This document shows positions 17,311 to 25,997 of a DNA stretch of 64,000 nucleotides, piece by piece. The DNA is from Methylohalomonas lacus (GTDB lineage: Bacteria > Pseudomonadota > Gammaproteobacteria > Methylohalomonadales > Methylohalomonadaceae). The stretch is taken from contig NZ_JANUCT010000013.1 in NCBI RefSeq assembly GCF_024808875.1, positions 1 to 64,000 of the forward strand, in the 5' to 3' direction. The position numbers and the translations under genes were made by a program. The notes beneath the pieces are model-generated. The model was not told the DNA's origin and did not search any database. It saw only the letters and a program-made list of their open reading frames with translations. Each line of letters opens with the position of its first letter. Positions within the stretch are counted from its first letter, which is position 1.

Positions 17311-17553
17311 ATGATTCGTTATCTCATAATAGGTGCCGTGCTGTATCTCGTCGGCGTACTGGTACGGCGTGTGTTGAAACAACTGCGCCAGCCTGCCGAA
17401 TCGCAGCAAACGGAAAAATCCGCCAGCGAAGCCACCGCCCGCTGTGCACATTGCGGTATGTTCGTGCCGCGCAATGAGGCGGTGCGTGGTGACGGCCGGG
17501 AGTTTTGCAGCCGTGAACATCAGCAGCTCGGGACTCGCCGGGACGGGGCATGA
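17311..17553 (+). CDS. PP0621-family small membrane protein with a C-terminal zinc-ribbon-like motif
   Basis: The likely start is ATG at 17311 (80 residues, MIRYLIIGAVLYLVGVLVRR). There is one N-terminal membrane segment, then a polar linker and a C-terminal motif CAHCGMFVPRNEAV followed by FCSREH, four potential metal ligands. I recognise this as the PP0621 family, commonly encoded just upstream of pilS in pilus-bearing gammaproteobacteria. Its 3' end overlaps the pilS start by 4 bases, which suggests co-translation. Its function is unknown. Confidence 0.75.
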   Translation: MIRYLIIGAVLYLVGVLVRRVLKQLRQPAESQQTEKSASEATARCAHCGMFVPRNEAVRGDGREFCSREHQQLGTRRDGA

Positions 17554-19160
17554 GCGCCAGACTGATCCCGGGGTCGGATTATGACGAGGTGGCCTGGCGG
17601 GCGCTGAGTTTTTTCAGCGGCTACCGCTTCATTATCAGCCTGATTTTCGTGGCGCTGGTGTGGCTGACCGATCTGCCGGAGCCGCTCGGCACATTCGATG
17701 ACCGGCTTTTCGCCCTGGTAACGCAGGCGTATTTCCTTGCCGCACTTTTGCTTTTTGTGCCACTGCGCCTGCGGTGGCCGGGGTTCGGCTACCAGGTGGC
17801 CGGCCAGGTTTTCATCGATATATTTGCCATCACCCTGATCATGTACGCCAGCGCCGGGGTGAGTAGCGGCTTTGGCATGCTGCTCATGATCGCCGTCGCC
17901 GGTGGCAGCCTGCTCAAGCCCGGCAAGATTGCCTATTTCTTTGCCGCCCTGGCGACGCTCGCCGTGCTTGGCGAGGAGCTCTACGCGCATCTGGTACGTT
18001 TTTTTCCAGCACCGAACTACACCCATGCCGCGGTGCTCGGCAGCACCTTTTTCATCGTCGCCTTCATCGGCCACAAGCTGGCGTTGCGTGTGCGCGAAAG
18101 CGAACAGCTGGCGGCGAGCCGCGCGATCGATATCCAGAATCTGGCGGCACTCAATGAACAGATCGTCCAGCACATGCAGTCCGGCGTGCTGGTCATCGAT
18201 GCGGATAATTCGATCCGGCTGGCGAACAGTTCGGCACGCAAGCTGCTGGGCGCGCGCCAGGAGCTGGCGGGTCAGCCCGTGACGTCGGTTTGCCCGGAAC
18301 TGAACTGGTTCATCGAACAGTGCCGCAGTCAGGGTGAGCAGGCGCCGGTGGTGATCCGGCCGTCGACGGCAGCAGTCGACGTGCAGGCCTCGTTCCGGCC
18401 GCTGAACCCCGGTGGCGACGCTGGCCTGCTGGTGTTCCTAGAAGATGCCTCAGTGCTGCGTCAGCGTGCCCAGCAGATGAAGCTGGCCTCGCTCGGACGT
18501 ATGGCGGCGAGCATTGCCCACGAGGTGCGCAATCCGCTTGGTGCCATCAGCCATGCCGGCCAGCTGCTGGGCGAATCGCCGCAGCTGGATGCGGGCGACC
18601 GGCGCCTGACGGCGATCATCCAGGACCATTCGAAGCGGGTGAACGCGATAGTGGAAAACGTCATGCAGGTCAGCCGCCGGCAGGCGCCGGCACCGGAGAC
18701 TTTTGAGCTCGGGAACTGGCTTGAGGAATTCTGTAGCGAATTTCGCCACCAGAACGACCTGCCGGAAGCGGCCGTGTTTTGCCGGGTGGAACCGGCCGAC
18801 ATACTGGTGACCATCGATCCCAGCCAACTGCAGCAGGTCATGCTCAACCTGTGCAGCAACGCGTTGCGCTACAGTCGCAATGAACCGTTGTTGACGATCA
18901 TCTGCGGTGTTCATGATGATCTCGAACGCCCGTACATCGATGTCATCGATCAGGGACCGGGCATGCCGGTGGCGATCGCCGAACACGTTTTCGAGCCGTT
19001 TGTGACGTCGGAAAGCCAGGGCACCGGGTTGGGCTTGTATATTGCCCGTGAGTTGTGCGAGGCCAACCAGGCGACCCTGCAGTTGCATGACAACAGCGAG
19101 ACGGGGTGCTGTTTCCGGATCAATTTCCCGCATCCGGACAAACGCCATATTCTTGAGTAA
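17550..19160 (+). CDS. pilS: Sensor histidine kinase PilS
   Basis: PilS senses membrane pilin levels and phosphorylates PilR. About six N-terminal membrane segments (residues 20-180) are followed by a PAS-like domain (205-300), the HisKA H-box SIAHEVRNPLGAIS with the phosphorylated histidine at 324, and ATPase boxes NLCSNALRY, DQGPGMP and GTGLGLYIA. The 536-residue length is typical. pilR follows after 9 bases. Confidence 0.95.
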   Translation: MSARLIPGSDYDEVAWRALSFFSGYRFIISLIFVALVWLTDLPEPLGTFDDRLFALVTQAYFLAALLLFVPLRLRWPGFGYQVAGQVFIDIFAITLIMYASAGVSSGFGMLLMIAVAGGSLLKPGKIAYFFAALATLAVLGEELYAHLVRFFPAPNYTHAAVLGSTFFIVAFIGHKLALRVRESEQLAASRAIDIQNLAALNEQIVQHMQSGVLVIDADNSIRLANSSARKLLGARQELAGQPVTSVCPELNWFIEQCRSQGEQAPVVIRPSTAAVDVQASFRPLNPGGDAGLLVFLEDASVLRQRAQQMKLASLGRMAASIAHEVRNPLGAISHAGQLLGESPQLDAGDRRLTAIIQDHSKRVNAIVENVMQVSRRQAPAPETFELGNWLEEFCSEFRHQNDLPEAAVFCRVEPADILVTIDPSQLQQVMLNLCSNALRYSRNEPLLTIICGVHDDLERPYIDVIDQGPGMPVAIAEHVFEPFVTSESQGTGLGLYIARELCEANQATLQLHDNSETGCCFRINFPHPDKRHILE

Positions 19161-19169
19161 GATTGCGCC

Positions 19170-20522
19170 ATGGCCATTGCTAGAGCCCTGATAGTCGACG
19201 ACGAACCGGATATTCGCGAGCTGCTGGCGATGACGCTCGCGCGCATGGATATCGACTGTGACAGCGCCACCAACCTGGAAGATGCGCGCGAACTGCTCAA
19301 CCGGTCGACGTTCCATGTCTGTCTCACCGACATGCGCCTGCCGGATGGCAACGGAATCGATTTCGTCGGCCATATCCAGAAGGAACGGCCGCAACTGCCG
19401 GTTGCGGTGATCACCGCCCACGGCAACATGGAATCGGCTATTCAGGCGCTGAAGGCCGGTGCGTTCGACTTTGTCACCAAGCCAGTGGATCTCGCGGTAC
19501 TGCGCAATCTGGTCGAGACCGCGCTGAAACTATCGCTGGAACAGCACGAGGCCCGGCACGAACTGATCGGCGACAGCCCGGCCATCCGCGAGGTGCGCAG
19601 CATGGTTGCCAAACTCGCCCGCAGCGAGGCGCCGGTTTACATCAGTGGCGAATCCGGCACCGGCAAGGAACTGGTGGCCCGGCTTATCCACGAACAGGGC
19701 GCGCGCGCCGAACAGCCGTTTGTACCGGTCAACTGCGGCGCCATTCCGCCCGAACTCATGGAAAGTGAGTTTTTCGGCTACAAGAAAGGCAGCTTCACCG
19801 GCGCGACCAGCGACAAGGACGGCCTGTTCCAGGCCGCCCGTGGCGGCACCCTGTTTCTCGACGAGATCGCCGAGTTGCCGCAGTCCATGCAGGTCAAATT
19901 GCTGCGCGCCATCCAGGAAAAGTCCATCCGTCCGATCGGTGCCAACGAAGAGCTTGCCGTCGACGTGCGTATCCTCAGCGCGACGCACCAGCCACTGGCC
20001 GGGCTGGTTGCCAACGGCCAGTTTCGCCAGGACCTGTTCTACCGTATCAACGTGATCGAACTGTATGTGCCGCCCCTGCGCGAACGCAGTGACGACATCG
20101 CGCTATTGGCCGACCATATTCTTGCCAGACTGGCAGCCGGCAGTGGCCGGCAATTCAAGCTGAGCAGTGCCGCCCGCCAGACCCTGTCGAACTACAGTTT
20201 CCCCGGCAACGTCCGCGAGTTGGAGAATATCCTCGAGCGCGCCACGGCCCTGTGCGACAGCGACGTGATCGACGCCGCCGATTTGCGTCTGCAGCAGATA
20301 CCGGCGGGGACCGGGCAGGCAGATGCCGACCGGGTCGAGGATAACGGCAGCTTCACGGACTACGGTGACCAGTCGCTGGACACCTACTTGGTGGATATCG
20401 AGAAACAGACCATCATGGATGCACTGGAGAAAACCCGCTGGAACAAGACCGCCGCCGCCAAGCTGCTGGGCATCAGCTTCCGCGCCCTGCGCTACCGGCT
20501 GGAGAAGCTCGGTTTAGAATGA
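19170..20522 (+). CDS. pilR: Sigma-54-dependent response regulator PilR
   Basis: PilR activates pilA transcription with RpoN. The receiver domain has the phosphoacceptor Asp54 in DMRLPDGNG. The AAA+ domain has Walker A GESGTGKE (160-167), the sigma-54 contact loop as GSFTGA (207-212; the classic form is GAFTGA) and Walker B GTLFLDE. A Fis-type helix-turn-helix ends the protein (TAAAKLLGISFRALRYRLEK). Its presumed target promoter lies about 140 bases downstream, before pilA. Confidence 0.95.
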   Translation: MAIARALIVDDEPDIRELLAMTLARMDIDCDSATNLEDARELLNRSTFHVCLTDMRLPDGNGIDFVGHIQKERPQLPVAVITAHGNMESAIQALKAGAFDFVTKPVDLAVLRNLVETALKLSLEQHEARHELIGDSPAIREVRSMVAKLARSEAPVYISGESGTGKELVARLIHEQGARAEQPFVPVNCGAIPPELMESEFFGYKKGSFTGATSDKDGLFQAARGGTLFLDEIAELPQSMQVKLLRAIQEKSIRPIGANEELAVDVRILSATHQPLAGLVANGQFRQDLFYRINVIELYVPPLRERSDDIALLADHILARLAAGSGRQFKLSSAARQTLSNYSFPGNVRELENILERATALCDSDVIDAADLRLQQIPAGTGQADADRVEDNGSFTDYGDQSLDTYLVDIEKQTIMDALEKTRWNKTAAAKLLGISFRALRYRLEKLGLE

Positions 20523-20783: not shown

Positions 20784-21215
20784 ATGAAGAAACAGGTTCA
20801 ACAGGGTTTTACCCTTATCGAACTGATGATCGTGGTCGCGATTATCGGCATCCTTGCCGCCGTCGCCATCCCCGCTTATCAGGACTACACCATTCGCGCC
20901 CAAGTCACTGAAGGCATCGGCTTTGCTGCTGCTGCCAAAACTTCGGTCTCCGAATTTTATGTGTCACAGGGCGAGATGCCGGCTAATATATCAGAGGCTG
21001 GTTTTGATGACGTCAGCACCGATGTTGTTCGGTCACTAGCATATGGAACCAGTGGCTCCAATGGTCAGATAACTGTCACGTTTGAAGATCTCGGGGGAGA
21101 TATGGGTGGTGGCGAAACCATGATATATGAAGGAACAGGAGATACCGGTGGCGTCAGCTGGGATTGCACGGGTGGTGACCTTCAGGCCAAGTACCGCCCG
21201 GCCAACTGCCGTTAA
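20784..21215 (+). CDS. pilA: Type IV major pilin PilA
   Basis: The 143-residue prepilin has an 8-residue leader ending QQG, then [20 protein letters not shown], the hydrophobic helix with Glu5 of the mature protein. A C-terminal disulfide loop is formed by Cys128 and Cys142. The variable region is short and rich in Gly, Asp and Glu. The protein ends NCR, so the C-terminal serine glycosylated by PilO-type enzymes is absent. The Shine-Dalgarno CAGGAGAG is good. Regulation by PilR and sigma-54 is indicated upstream, and a strong terminator follows. Confidence 0.96.
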
Positions 21216-21240: not shown

Positions 21241-21270
21241 AAAGCCCCATCCAGTGATGGGGCTTTTTTA
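21241..21270 (+). terminator. Intrinsic terminator of pilA
   Basis: AAGCCCCATC-CAGT-GATGGGGCTT followed by TTTTATTT forms a 10-base-pair hairpin with a T-run. It lies about 25 bases after the pilA stop, so the genes behind it need their own promoter or readthrough. Confidence 0.92.
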
Positions 21271-21302
21271 TTTGAAGCGTTGAAACAAGAAAATAATTGT
21301 TA

Positions 21303-23237
21303 ATGAAAGAGAATCATCTGAAGCTGCTGTTAGTAGCGCTGTTGATAGCCTTGACGGTTTCGGTTTACTGGCCTGCCATGGGTGGAACGTTTGTATTCGA
21401 TGATTACCCGAACATCATAGACAATCAGCAGTTGCACATGCAAAAGGATAGCCTGGCTGACTGGACCAGGGCCAGCCTTTCTGGATTTGCAGGCCCGTTA
21501 CTACGTCCAATAAGCATGTTTACCTTTGCGGTCAATCTAGAGATGTGTGGGCTATATCCACGATGTTTCAAGCTGACCAATCTGGCCATACATGTTATGA
21601 CTGGTTTGCTGTTATTTCTTGTTGTAACGAGACTCCTCAAACAACATTCCTCGATTTCTAATAGCAATATATCACCGAAAAGCATCATGCTGATTTCAGG
21701 TGCAATAGGACTGCTCTGGCTATTGCATCCTATTAATGTCAGCAGTGTCGCATATGTAGTTCAGAGAATGAATTTACTTGCTGGCCTGTTTGTATTTTCT
21801 GGCCTTCTGTCGTATTTGATAGGCCGTCAAAAAATGGAGTTAGGTAATGGAGGCAGAATTCATATTTTAGCTGCCTTTATGATCACAATTCCTGCCATGC
21901 TCTCCAAGGAGAATGGTGCATTACTGCCGTTTTTCCTGTTGTTGGTGGAGATTTATTTCTTTAAATTCAGAAGTGAAGGGAAAGCGGATAGATATTTGCT
22001 TGTTTCGCTTTTTTCGTTATCCATAGCTTTACCAGTGGTTGTGGTTCTTGGCTTCGTTATACTAAATCCCGAGTGGCTCCTGCAGAGGTATGACAATAGA
22101 GAATTTTCTCTGATTGAGAGAATACTGACTCAACCCCGGGTCCTGTCGCTTTATCTGGGTCTTTTGGTTTTCCCGACAAACCAAAGACTCTCTCTGTTTC
22201 ATGATAATTTTGAGGTTTCAACTGGCCTTCTAGAACCGACAAGCACCTTGCTCGCATTATTGGGATTGTTCGGAGTTGTTATTTTAATTTGTGCACTTTA
22301 TAAGCGGGCGAAGCTTTTGAGTTTTGGGCTAGCTTTTTTCTTGGTTGGACACCTGATAGAGTCGACTATAATTCCCCTGGAGATGGTATTTGAGCACAGG
22401 AACTATATTCCAGCTTTTGGTATATTACTGCCATTAATCTATTATCTGTATGCTTCTACATACGGAATAAAAACAATCAATATAAGACGCTCATGCATAG
22501 TTATTTTGATTGTGTTGTTTGCGGTCATTACCCTGCTCAGAGCCGCGGAATGGGGGAATCCGCTACTATTGGCGGAGCTGGAAGCTAAATCGAATCCTGA
22601 TTCAGTACGGATTAATAATCTTGCTGGCAGAACCTATGCTAATGCCTATGAATCGGTTCCAGACGAGGACAAAAGTGCTGTTTATAAACAGGCTCATGAA
22701 TACTACAAAAAGGCGCATGAACTAGCCGAAGGTGACCTGATTAGCCTGGCTTCCTTGATAAGACTGGAGTCAAGAGCCAGAGGCTCAGCCAGGTACAAAT
22801 GGTATTCCAGTATGCTAGATATTCTGGAAAGCAAGAAACTGTCTGCCTCTGACAGTAATGCTATAAAACATTTGTTAGCTTGTCAGCGTCAGGGAATTTG
22901 TCCGGCCAGCAAGACTGGTTTTGAAAGCCTTATAAAGGCAGTAGAGGAAAATCCAAACCAGAACAGCAAATACAGAGCAATGATCTATACTGATTTTAGC
23001 CAGCATTATTGGTCGTTTATAGGCGATCAATCCAAAGCATTGGAGTATAGCAAAAAGGCCTATTCTGTATACCCAGAGGAAATAAGAATTGTGCTCAATT
23101 ATGCAAGTATATTGATCGCGAATGGGGATCATGAAAGGGCGGAGATGTTGATACAGGATGCAGGATCCATGGATATTCTTGGAATTCATTCAGTTAGAAT
23201 CAAGGAGCTGACCAATTTTGTGGAGCAGGCTAAATAA
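21303..23237 (+). CDS. GT-C-like polytopic membrane protein, candidate pilin or surface glycosyltransferase
   Basis: The protein is 644 residues from ATG 21303; a TTG at 21297 is possible. About ten membrane segments span residues 8-420. An early periplasmic loop FVFDDYPNIIDNQQ resembles the acidic first loop of GT-C/PMT-type sugar transferases that use polyprenyl-phosphate sugars. The last 220 residues are soluble and TPR-like. Position directly behind pilA recalls the accessory pilin-glycosylation genes of Pseudomonas (for example TfpW), but I claim only positional analogy. Base composition is far more AT-rich than pilR. It overlaps the next gene by one base. Confidence 0.65.
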   Translation: MKENHLKLLLVALLIALTVSVYWPAMGGTFVFDDYPNIIDNQQLHMQKDSLADWTRASLSGFAGPLLRPISMFTFAVNLEMCGLYPRCFKLTNLAIHVMTGLLLFLVVTRLLKQHSSISNSNISPKSIMLISGAIGLLWLLHPINVSSVAYVVQRMNLLAGLFVFSGLLSYLIGRQKMELGNGGRIHILAAFMITIPAMLSKENGALLPFFLLLVEIYFFKFRSEGKADRYLLVSLFSLSIALPVVVVLGFVILNPEWLLQRYDNREFSLIERILTQPRVLSLYLGLLVFPTNQRLSLFHDNFEVSTGLLEPTSTLLALLGLFGVVILICALYKRAKLLSFGLAFFLVGHLIESTIIPLEMVFEHRNYIPAFGILLPLIYYLYASTYGIKTINIRRSCIVILIVLFAVITLLRAAEWGNPLLLAELEAKSNPDSVRINNLAGRTYANAYESVPDEDKSAVYKQAHEYYKKAHELAEGDLISLASLIRLESRARGSARYKWYSSMLDILESKKLSASDSNAIKHLLACQRQGICPASKTGFESLIKAVEENPNQNSKYRAMIYTDFSQHYWSFIGDQSKALEYSKKAYSVYPEEIRIVLNYASILIANGDHERAEMLIQDAGSMDILGIHSVRIKELTNFVEQAK

Positions 23238-24109
23238 TGACTGACGTCGACAATAGCAGAGTAAGTATTATCTTGCCTGCCAAAAATGAGGCAGCCTCTT
23301 TAAAGCATTTGCTGCCAGAACTAAAAAATTGCTTCCCGGAATCTGAAATAATAGTTGTCGATGATGGATCAAATGATACAACAGTCGAAGTTTGTGAATC
23401 TAATAACGTGACTTGCTTACAGCATCAATATAGTAAAGGTAATGGGGCAGCCATAAAGTCAGGTACTAGGGCGGCAACAGGAGAGATTTTAGTATTTATG
23501 GATGCAGATGGGCAGCATTTAGCGGAGGAAATAACCAAGCTTCTAGATGTGCTGGAACAGGGCTATGATATGGTAGTAGGTGCAAGAAAGTTTGGGCATC
23601 AGGCTAATTATGGTAGGGGTTTAGCTAATACTGTTTATAACAAATTTGCCAGTTTAGTTACTGGGCATCTGGTTAAAGATCTGACATCAGGTTTTCGTGT
23701 CGTTAGAGCAGAGAAATTTAAGGAATTTCTTTACATGCTTCCGAATGGGTTTTCATATCCAAGCACAATCACTATGGCCTTTTTTCGTGTGGGTTACTCA
23801 GTAGTTTATGCTCCTATTAATGTCAAGAATAGAATTGGCAAGAGTCATATTAGACCTTTACGTGACGGGTTAAGATTTTTGCTTATTATATTTAGAATTA
23901 CAACATTATATTCACCTCTTAAGATATTCCTGCCAATTAGTAGTTTTGTTTTTTTGGTTGGATTTATGTACTACATATATACTTATATTACTGATGATCG
24001 CTTTACTAATATGAGTGCTCTTTTGATCTTGTCAGCGATTTCCATTTTCTTAGTAGGGTTGGTCTCAGAACAAATTACAATGCTTTTGTATAAGAAAGAT
24101 GCGAAATGA
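23237..24109 (+). CDS. Family 2 glycosyltransferase, polyprenyl-phosphate-sugar synthase-like
   Basis: The 290-residue protein begins with a GT-A fold: VSIILPAKNEAASL, VVDDGSNDTT and a DADGQH metal-binding motif, as in dolichyl-phosphate-mannose synthase and GtrB-type enzymes. Two membrane segments near the C-terminus (about residues 230-252 and 258-282) would anchor it to the inner membrane. It probably loads a sugar from a nucleotide donor onto a polyprenyl phosphate, supplying the GT-C-like protein encoded just before it. The start codon shares one base with the preceding stop. Confidence 0.8.
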   Translation: MTDVDNSRVSIILPAKNEAASLKHLLPELKNCFPESEIIVVDDGSNDTTVEVCESNNVTCLQHQYSKGNGAAIKSGTRAATGEILVFMDADGQHLAEEITKLLDVLEQGYDMVVGARKFGHQANYGRGLANTVYNKFASLVTGHLVKDLTSGFRVVRAEKFKEFLYMLPNGFSYPSTITMAFFRVGYSVVYAPINVKNRIGKSHIRPLRDGLRFLLIIFRITTLYSPLKIFLPISSFVFLVGFMYYIYTYITDDRFTNMSALLILSAISIFLVGLVSEQITMLLYKKDAK

Positions 24110-25155
24110 GAGTGCTTATAGACATAGGCCATCCTGCCCATGTCCATTTTTTTAAAAATCCAATTAATATTCTCCAACGCTCTGGTCATGAAATTATAAT
24201 AACTAGTCGTACTAAAGAGATGACTCAGTTATTACTTGATCAGGCTGGAGTTGAGCATTTCAATCTGTCAAATCAAGGGCCAGGTGGCATTAAGTCGTTA
24301 TTATCTGAGCTTCTTGTTCGTGACTGTAGGCTTTATAATCTTGTAAAAAAAGTCCGACCTGATGTTATGGCAGGAATTGGAGGGATATTTATAGCTCATG
24401 TAGGGGCGATCACACGTATACCGTCTATAGTTTTTTATGATACGGAAAATGCCAAGCTGCAAAACATTTTAACTTATCCACTAGCAAAAAGAGTTGTTGT
24501 GCCGGATTGCTATAGGGCATGGACGCCGAAATGGAAAACTTTACGCTATAAAGGCTATCATGAACTCTCCTATTTGCACCCTGCATATTTCACACCTGAT
24601 CGAAATATTGCGATTATTAATGGGATGGTTGAAGGACAGGAAAATTACTTATTACGACTGGTTTCTTGGAAGGCTAGCCATGATATTGGACAATCTGGTC
24701 TATCCATAGATAATATCCGATTATTAGTGAGTTACTTATCTAAGAGAGGTAATATTGTAATCTCATCCGAAGCAGAACTAACTGATGATCTCAAAAAATA
24801 CCAATATCGAGGAGATATCTCACAGATTCATCATCTACTGGCATATTGTGATGGCTACATAGGTGAAAGTGCGACTATGGGATCAGAAGCAGTTGTTTTA
24901 GGTGTGCCATCAGTTTTTATATCAGCAGAGGGAAGAGGGTATACTACAGAGCAAGAACTTAGGTATGGGTTGTCAAAAAATATAGAAAAAAATGATTGGC
25001 TTTCTATTAAAGAAGGAATTGACTGGTTGCTAACACTAGATATTTATAAGTGGGACGAAAGACACACACAAATGCTAGCAAACACTATTGACGTTGCGTC
25101 ATTTGTAGGAGAGCAAATTATTGCTACTGGGCGCCCACGCAAGCTATGTGATTAG
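24106..25155 (+). CDS. DUF354-family GT-B-like protein
   Basis: The 349-residue protein starts MRVLIDIGHPAHVHFFKN, the signature of DUF354 proteins. These are predicted to adopt a glycogen-phosphorylase/GT-B fold related to UDP-GlcNAc 2-epimerases and MurG-type transferases. No membrane segment is seen. The GYIGESATMGSEAVVLGVPS segment near residue 255 resembles the donor-site region of that fold. It overlaps the preceding GT2 gene by 4 bases, so the three genes form one unit. The exact reaction is unknown. Confidence 0.75.
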   Translation: MRVLIDIGHPAHVHFFKNPINILQRSGHEIIITSRTKEMTQLLLDQAGVEHFNLSNQGPGGIKSLLSELLVRDCRLYNLVKKVRPDVMAGIGGIFIAHVGAITRIPSIVFYDTENAKLQNILTYPLAKRVVVPDCYRAWTPKWKTLRYKGYHELSYLHPAYFTPDRNIAIINGMVEGQENYLLRLVSWKASHDIGQSGLSIDNIRLLVSYLSKRGNIVISSEAELTDDLKKYQYRGDISQIHHLLAYCDGYIGESATMGSEAVVLGVPSVFISAEGRGYTTEQELRYGLSKNIEKNDWLSIKEGIDWLLTLDIYKWDERHTQMLANTIDVASFVGEQIIATGRPRKLCD

Positions 25156-25997
25156 ATAAAATCTATTTTTTTATATGAGTCCCAGTCTAACTTCGAATCA
25201 ATTTCGTTCCGTTGTTTTTCAGTAAATAAACTTAGCCATTTTTTTTTCTGATTCGATGCCTTATCCAAGGCTGACGTTTTCCAATGCTCGTTGTCTCGAG
25301 TAATTACTGATGTTGATTTAGTTTTTCTGAGGGATAGATTTATTTCTCTTTGTATATTAGTCATTAACGAATATTTTCTATTTATTAAGTCCTCGTACCG
25401 AACAAAAATACATTCACTATTATTTGCTTTTTCTAAAGCTATATTTACCGAACTATTCCATAAGTTTATTGCAAATTCGATATTTTCATGCCCAAACCAA
25501 TGCGGGTATTTCAAAGAACGGTCATATATTGATGCAACAACATCGTTGCCTTGGCGAATTATATAAATGATATATGGTTTCGGCGAGATAGCTTCAATAT
25601 ATTCTAGTCTATAAAAATGCTTAGGAGTCTTTTCTACCCAAGTACTATAGCCTAATTTATTTGCTAGCTGATCAAGATAAGTTACCCATAATAGTATGCT
25701 GTGTTCTTTGGATGTTATGCAATAAAAGAATTTTTTTAGGCCAAGTTGTGGAGTCCAATACTTGATTGCATCTTTGGTTTTATTTAGTTTGAAAAGAAAG
25801 TTATAAGGTGGTGTTACTTTATTGGAATACATCGATTGTAGACGATACATTGCCTTAATTCGGGCAGCATAATTATCTAGGCCATCCAAGAAATAGCCTG
25901 TTTCTGGGAAGCAGCAAACGTCAAAATACTTCCCCATTTCATTTTGCATGATAGTTGTGCCCGAGCGCGAACAACCTACTATGCAAATCCTTTTCAA
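25152..25997 (-). CDS. Sulfotransferase-family protein
   Basis: The 281-residue protein starts KRICIVGCSRSGTTIMQNEM, where CSRSGTT is the 5'-phosphosulfate-binding loop of PAPS-dependent sulfotransferases. IYIIRQGNDVVASIYDRSL fits the 3'-phosphate-binding region. It would transfer sulfate from PAPS to a hydroxyl, possibly on a glycan. It is transcribed against the glycosyltransferase genes and overlaps the DUF354 stop by 4 bases. It shares their AT-rich composition. The acceptor is unknown. Confidence 0.82.
   Translation of the reverse strand: MKRICIVGCSRSGTTIMQNEMGKYFDVCCFPETGYFLDGLDNYAARIKAMYRLQSMYSNKVTPPYNFLFKLNKTKDAIKYWTPQLGLKKFFYCITSKEHSILLWVTYLDQLANKLGYSTWVEKTPKHFYRLEYIEAISPKPYIIYIIRQGNDVVASIYDRSLKYPHWFGHENIEFAINLWNSSVNIALEKANNSECIFVRYEDLINRKYSLMTNIQREINLSLRKTKSTSVITRDNEHWKTSALDKASNQKKKWLSLFTEKQRNEIDSKLDWDSYKKIDFI

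Follow-up and report, generated by a model that had tools for sequence, protein, structure and literature searches.

The window analysed here, a stretch of 64 kb of Methylohalomonas lacus DNA, contains an AT-rich island at about 21.3-26.1 kb, 3' of pilA and its terminator and ahead of suhB. The GC content of the island was 0.34-0.42 versus about 0.60, and in 1-kb windows it was the only part of the whole 64 kb to fall below 0.48, which confirmed the sharp drop in composition that an earlier note on this DNA had reported behind the pilA terminator. Gene by gene, GC contents were 0.525 for pilA, 0.422 for the glycosyltransferase (GT-C) gene, 0.369 for the GT2 gene, 0.385 for the DUF354 gene, 0.336 for the sulfotransferase gene and 0.598 for suhB. 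The island consists of four genes, encoding a GT-C/TPR protein, a GT2, a DUF354 protein and a convergent Sulfotransfer_3 protein; the earlier note had stopped short of the last two. The flanking suhB was assigned from its translation. The other features of the region are the following.

17,550-19,160: pilS, upstream of pilA (assigned by reading the translation).
19,170-20,522: pilR, upstream of pilA (assigned by reading the translation).
20,784-21,215, plus strand: pilA, the type IVa major pilin and proposed acceptor (Pfam Pilin 1.1e-20, N_methyl 4.4e-10).
21,241-21,269, plus strand: Rho-independent terminator, a proposed attenuator (11-bp stem plus T run).
21,303-23,237, plus strand: GT-C glycosyltransferase of 644 amino acids, the proposed pilin O-glycosyltransferase (AF2 model, Foldseek, invariant residues).
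23,237-24,109, plus strand: GT2 resembling polyprenyl-phosphate-sugar synthases, with C-terminal TM helices, the proposed donor synthase (Pfam Glycos_transf_2 3e-29).
24,106-25,155, plus strand: DUF354 protein, GT-B-like by family, a probable accessory sugar enzyme (Pfam DUF354 2.2e-19).
25,152-25,997, minus strand: Sulfotransfer_3 protein, possible glycan-modifying cargo (Pfam Sulfotransfer_3 8.9e-20).

The earlier note had placed two overlapping genes at 21,303-23,237 and 23,237-24,109, and both positions were right: the GT-C and GT2 genes share one base (TAATG), and the DUF354 gene in turn overlaps the GT2 gene by 4 bases. The GT-C gene starts with an ATG at 21,303, and its open reading frame can begin at a TTG at 21,297. 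Long direct repeats were sought at the island borders and none were found. The GT-C/GT2 island is probably a horizontally acquired cassette.

The GT-C protein is predicted to have 11 TM helices (residues 1-417) followed by a TPR domain (residues 435-643). The AF2 model of the whole protein, built on 58 aligned relatives, had a pLDDT of 94.6, and a model of residues 1-440 reached 95.3. A fold search with the whole protein told little, as the TPR tail took over its matches, which is why the membrane domain was modelled separately. With this model, ranks 1-24 of the Foldseek search of the PDB were all members of the GT-C family, with matches to STT3 of OST, ArnT, PglB, AglB, Pmt1, Pmt4, PIG-U, ALG12, AftA, EmbB, PimE and DPY19; beyond rank 24 the list turned to unrelated transporters. 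The ArnT match was the structure with undecaprenyl phosphate, at 17% identity to the GT-C protein. The E-values were modest (0.003-0.15) and the query TM-scores mostly 0.33-0.50, values that do not single out one GT-C subfamily. An unbroken run of 24 GT-C ranks would nevertheless be hard to obtain by chance, and the product of 21,303-23,237 is predicted to have a GT-C membrane fold. This was the structural check set beforehand for the GT-C-like fold that the earlier note had proposed, and its outcome favoured that proposal. No convincing Pfam, NCBIfam or PHROGs model was found for residues 1-440, and only the TPR part could be named (Pfam TPR_12, 4.5e-06). That part folded in the model as a solenoid of helical pairs, bearing out the TPR-like tail that had been noted. 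Searching the sequences of the PDB with a profile of the GT-C membrane domain gave no match, and the Wzy_C (O-antigen ligase) domain had no match in the GT-C family at E up to 1. The M. lacus genome carries one GT-C of this family.

A DXD-like acidic motif in the first extracytoplasmic loop is a trait of the GT-C superfamily and is present here as D33-D34. These residues belong to the acidic loop FVFDDYP that had been pointed out earlier, and both were invariant in 73 of 73 homologues. Other invariant positions in the family alignment were R68, H97, P143, Q154, R155, K202, L359, E364, H365 and R366, with E203, E216, R266, R273, E353, E360, N367 and Y368 nearly invariant. The TM count and sidedness were read from the model helices, hydropathy and loop charge. 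Loops rich in K/R, taken as cytoplasmic, occur at about residues 111-124, 176-188, 221-227, 332-337 and 386-396, whereas the DD, R68, QR, KE, HD and EHRNY motifs and the TPR tail all lie on the opposite side, in the predicted periplasm. In this topology the DD, R, QR, KE and EHR residues are those expected of a GT-C active site in periplasmic loops.

The same build has been described for the human TMTC proteins, O-mannosyltransferases that combine a GT-C domain with TPRs. They carry DD and a ..RP motif in EL1, RxD in EL2 and KE in EL3; the long loop joining TM7 and TM8 (EL4) has an acidic residue, ERxxY lies between TM9 and TM10 (EL5), and the TPRs come after the last helix (PMC7801869). The motif series reads DD, ..RP, RxD, KE(T/Q)xxT, DW, ERxxY. 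Like TMTC1-4, the GT-C protein has 11 TM helices followed by trans-side TPRs, and by comparison with the published motifs its own occur in the same order and loops: D33-D34, R68-P69, R155xN157, K202-E203, H300-D301 and E364-H-R366-N-Y368. The two differ in RxN for RxD, in the lack of DW and in ExRxY for ERxxY. TMTC enzymes take their sugar from dolichyl-phosphate-mannose, the product of a DPM synthase, and the GT2 encoded here is a relative of DPM synthase; the TMTC substrate is cadherin, whereas the substrate proposed for the GT-C protein is pilin. The TMTC_DUF1736 domain (PF08409) had no match in 58 GT-C members at E up to 1. A search of 56 genomes for this domain also gave no match, yet it gave none in any control genome either. 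The GT-C protein may work like a TMTC protein, by analogy; TMTC membership is not claimed, because TMTC_DUF1736 was undetected and some motifs differ.

The second gene of the pair fits a donor-synthase role. Its best NCBIfam models, AglJ (1.1e-34) and a dolichyl-phosphate hexose transferase, both scored below cut-off, and its nearest solved structures were ArnC (7.8e-15), DPM synthase (9.2e-15) and GtrB sll0501 (1.1e-09). Together with the Glycos_transf_2 match, these upheld the earlier description of a GT2 resembling polyprenyl-phosphate-sugar synthases. Among 56 linked GT2s, D89-x-D91-x-QH (Q93, H94) and R199-x-G201-x-S203 showed conservation of 93% or more, and the C-terminal end was hydrophobic. 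Given these nearest relatives and conserved signatures, the putative product of the GT2 is most likely a polyprenyl-phosphate-linked monosaccharide.

The linkage to pilin was examined across genomes. A scan of the genome collection gave 43 loci, mostly with pilin, one or two GT-Cs and GT2 in that order, from Halieaceae, Chromatiaceae, Competibacteraceae, Xanthomonadaceae (Stenotrophomonas), Pseudomonas chengduensis, P. toyotomiensis, Azoarcus and Desulfobacterota. Such a scan is biased towards near relatives, and a profile search was therefore made in 185 evenly drawn gammaproteobacterial genomes, with the regions around the matches parsed. The GT-C family was present in 61 of the 185, about a third. 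Clusters scoring above 200 bits (n=46) were treated as evaluable, and a pilin was counted if it lay upstream in the same orientation, no more than 1 kb away. A pilin was directly upstream in 34 of the 46, against a chance expectation that we estimate at about 0.3% (about 13 N_methyl genes per 2.8 Mb), in keeping with the expectation that the gene would be found mostly behind pilA in relatives. The GT2 followed the GT-C in 30 of the 46. Twelve of the 46 had no pilin within 3 kb, which counts against a role in pilin glycosylation; the unlinked clusters examined adjoin unrelated housekeeping genes, and several retain the GT2. The pilin/GT-C pair lies behind pilSR in many loci, occurs without pilSR in two (L135 and L141) and forms an inverted unit facing pilR in another (L116). 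Since the link survives these changes of context and orientation, a mere insertion hot spot is disfavoured. In a tree of 133 GT-Cs, sequences clustered by position (directly behind pilin or second in tandem), with many changes, and for this reason no clean split into first and second enzymes is claimed. Plasmids gave no relative at a tblastn E of 1e-5.

The space between pilin and enzyme is also recurrent. In M. lacus it holds the hairpin AAAGCCCCATCCAGTGATGGGGCTTTTTT at 21,241-21,269. Of 62 pilin/GT-C pairs, 40 have a terminator-like hairpin 3' of the pilin, versus 2 of 290 control gene ends in the same loci. An attenuated layout of pilin, terminator and accessory gene is known from P. aeruginosa and several other genera (PMC11841053). 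The pilin itself ends in ...NCR and, as the earlier note had observed, is without the C-terminal serine. At the last aligned column of 56 linked pilins, Ser or Thr was found in 0 of 56 and Arg in 70%, so that a TfpO-like enzyme acting on a C-terminal Ser is not expected, in line with the argument of the earlier note. No Ser or Thr emerges from the linked-pilin alignment as a conserved acceptor, which also counts against pilin glycosylation.

Several related loci depart from the common arrangement. Tandem GT-Cs (two or three) with a single GT2 were found behind a pilin in twelve Halieaceae loci (L037-L040, L043, L046, L047, L051, L052, L056, L058 and L061) and three tandem GT-Cs in L127, an arrangement that suggests stepwise or multi-site glycosylation. 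In L041 (Stenotrophomonas) and L135 (G164), pilin, GT-C and pilin follow each other on one strand, with no GT2 homologue in the fetched locus. The Desulfobacterota loci L055, L057, L059, L062, L065 and L068 have small pilin-like genes as neighbours of the GT-C gene; in several of them these genes are on the other strand or pilR is close by. In L163 (G034, 1,402,500-1,412,500 of a single-contig 3.4 Mb genome) the pilin is intact, whereas the GT-C gene has several stop codons and the GT2 gene is split; because the cassette there is decaying, the GT-C/GT2 module is dispensable in that lineage. Six Pseudomonas genomes (L183-L188) carry distant GT-Cs directly behind pilA (profile E about 1e-18 to 1e-22) with the motifs NPLIFDDE or YVWDD. 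Five of these are closely alike (about 550-570 aa) and that of L184 is different (about 640 aa); the L183 protein has clear TPR matches. They represent further pilin-linked subfamilies and are possible TfpW relatives.

The order pilin, GT-C, GT2, DUF354 recurs in L042 (Chromatiaceae) and in L126 (G133, with two GT-Cs). No homologue of the sulfotransferase was seen in the other cassette loci compared, and its membership of the module is uncertain. Among 95 proteins scanned downstream of cassettes, raw counts were 17 for GT4/GT1-type glycosyltransferases and 13 for SAM methyltransferases, with a few LPG_synthase_TM and DegT proteins; in P. chengduensis a Wzx-like protein lies 3' of the GT2. The DUF354 protein and the sulfotransferase would then probably serve as tailoring cargo that elaborates the glycan. 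The flippase GtrA (PF04138) was absent from the M. lacus cassette and genome and was found in 7 of 14 control genomes; another flippase candidate, LPG_synthase_TM, was likewise absent from the M. lacus genome. These missing candidates are a further point against pilin glycosylation. The genome encodes two Wzy_C proteins, with PglL-type domains detected in neither.

The reading we prefer, with a probability of about 0.77, is that the cassette is a pilin-specific, TMTC-like O-glycosylation module, probably acquired horizontally. It builds on what is directly supported, namely the genes themselves, a predicted fold of the GT-C type, the conservation of active-site residues and a gene order of pilin, terminator, GT-C and GT2 that recurs. 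From these we infer pilin glycosylation by the GT-C protein, along with the donor lipid, periplasmic transfer, pilin as the acceptor and the roles of the TPR domain, the DUF354 protein and the sulfotransferase. In the proposed mechanism, the GT2 would transfer a single sugar from a nucleotide-sugar to undecaprenyl phosphate in the cytoplasm, and a separate protein would flip the lipid-linked sugar to the periplasm. There the GT-C protein, using the DD motif of EL1 together with basic and acidic residues in EL2 to EL5, would move the sugar to a Ser/Thr of membrane-embedded PilA ahead of pilin assembly. The periplasmic TPR domain would probably recognise the pilin, the pilA terminator would hold expression of the enzyme well below that of the pilin, and the DUF354 protein and sulfotransferase would probably elaborate the glycan. 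Judging by TfpO and TfpW, the obvious candidate for the biological purpose would be evasion of phages.

Other readings of the locus were weighed. The pair could be a Gtr-type system decorating LPS O-antigen or another envelope glycan, with the site behind pilA serving as an insertion hot spot. A GT2 with a GT-C is the classical arrangement for adding side branches to O-antigen in the periplasm (PMC11127046), and the three-component systems (GtrA/GtrB/Gtr*) likewise place a polyprenyl-phosphate GT2 beside a GT-C; the island is compositionally foreign, and some clusters have the GT2, adjoin unrelated housekeeping genes and are without a pilin. A hot spot, however, leaves unexplained why the GT-C family sits behind pilins in varied contexts and orientations. 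Unlike Gtr systems, the cassette is pilin-linked and has a TPR domain, which would suit a protein acceptor better than a polysaccharide, and the third component, GtrA, is absent from both the cassette and its own genome. We regard this explanation as unlikely. The GT-C domain might instead be a non-catalytic scaffold and the protein a TPR factor for pilus biogenesis or a chaperone, comparable to the TfpY/FimB accessory proteins, also found behind pilA. TfpY-like proteins occupy the same position and aid assembly without modifying the pilin (PMC11841053), and the PilW profile gives a weak match to the TPR tail, as it would to any TPR. This is very improbable: the invariant DD, R, QR, KE and EHR residues fit a GT-C active site in predicted periplasmic loops, and a dedicated polyprenyl-phosphate GT2 travels with the GT-C.

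A third possibility is a diverged TfpW, with polyprenyl-phosphate D-Araf as the donor for an oligosaccharyltransferase or arabinosyltransferase. Among described pilin enzymes, TfpW was the only pilA-linked GT-C found (PMC11841053). It has the same location and belongs to the same GT-C class, and the profile also finds the six distant Pseudomonas GT-Cs directly behind pilA. TfpW and the protein studied here share the pilA-linked GT-C, the intervening terminator, a pilin substrate (here proposed) and no need for a C-terminal Ser. The TfpW of P. paraeruginosa (Pa5196/PA7) uses lipid-linked D-Araf from genes elsewhere (RGP80), with tfpX alongside, and these D-Araf genes lie away from the pilA locus (PMC12369383). 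Compared by description and gene position only, the cassette here differs in having its own GT2 and a TPR domain, and its donor enzyme is a DPM-synthase-like GT2 and not the dedicated D-Araf pathway of P. paraeruginosa (PMC12369383). A diverged TfpW is accordingly given very little credence. The TfpW-type logic invoked by the earlier note is an analogy only: the arrangement of motifs is like that of eukaryotic TMTC enzymes and ArnT/PMT, and the donor logic differs too, with the GT2 in the cassette here and the D-Araf genes elsewhere in P. paraeruginosa (PMC12369383).

If the cassette is a pilin-specific O-glycosylation module, it would add a further route to those of TfpO, TfpM, PglS and TfpW. 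TfpO, TfpM, PglS and PglL are of the Wzy_C/WaaL class (PMC12645811). Like the activity proposed for the GT-C protein, TfpO/PilO, TfpM, PglS and PglL modify pilin in the periplasm, and TfpO, TfpM and PglS are often genetically linked to it; unlike them, the GT-C protein has ArnT/STT3/PMT-type fold matches, and Arg is the last residue of most pilins linked to it. A 2025 review of bacterial O-glycosylation names TfpO, TfpM, PglS and PglL and makes no mention of tetratricopeptide, GT-C or TMTC (PMC12645811). No Pfam model covers the catalytic domain of the GT-C family, and in the open-licence literature no paper tying the family to pilins and no report of pilA-linked TPR/GT-C enzymes was found. 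The evidence leans somewhat towards an undescribed and widespread class of pilin-specific O-glycosyltransferases of TMTC-like build, carried in Gammaproteobacteria and Desulfobacterota by exchangeable pilin/terminator/GT-C/GT2 cassettes whose methyl-, sulfo- and glycosyltransferase cargo would diversify pilus glycans. If the family does glycosylate pilins, pilin-specific O-glycosylation would be far commoner outside pathogens than is known, and which glycan a pilus carries would be a mobile trait linked to pilA, with pilus-specific phages as a plausible driving force. The family would also provide a bacterial model for TMTC chemistry, and the compactness of the enzyme and its genetic linkage to the acceptor would offer a tractable bacterial system for TMTC-like protein O-glycosylation and for glycoengineering.
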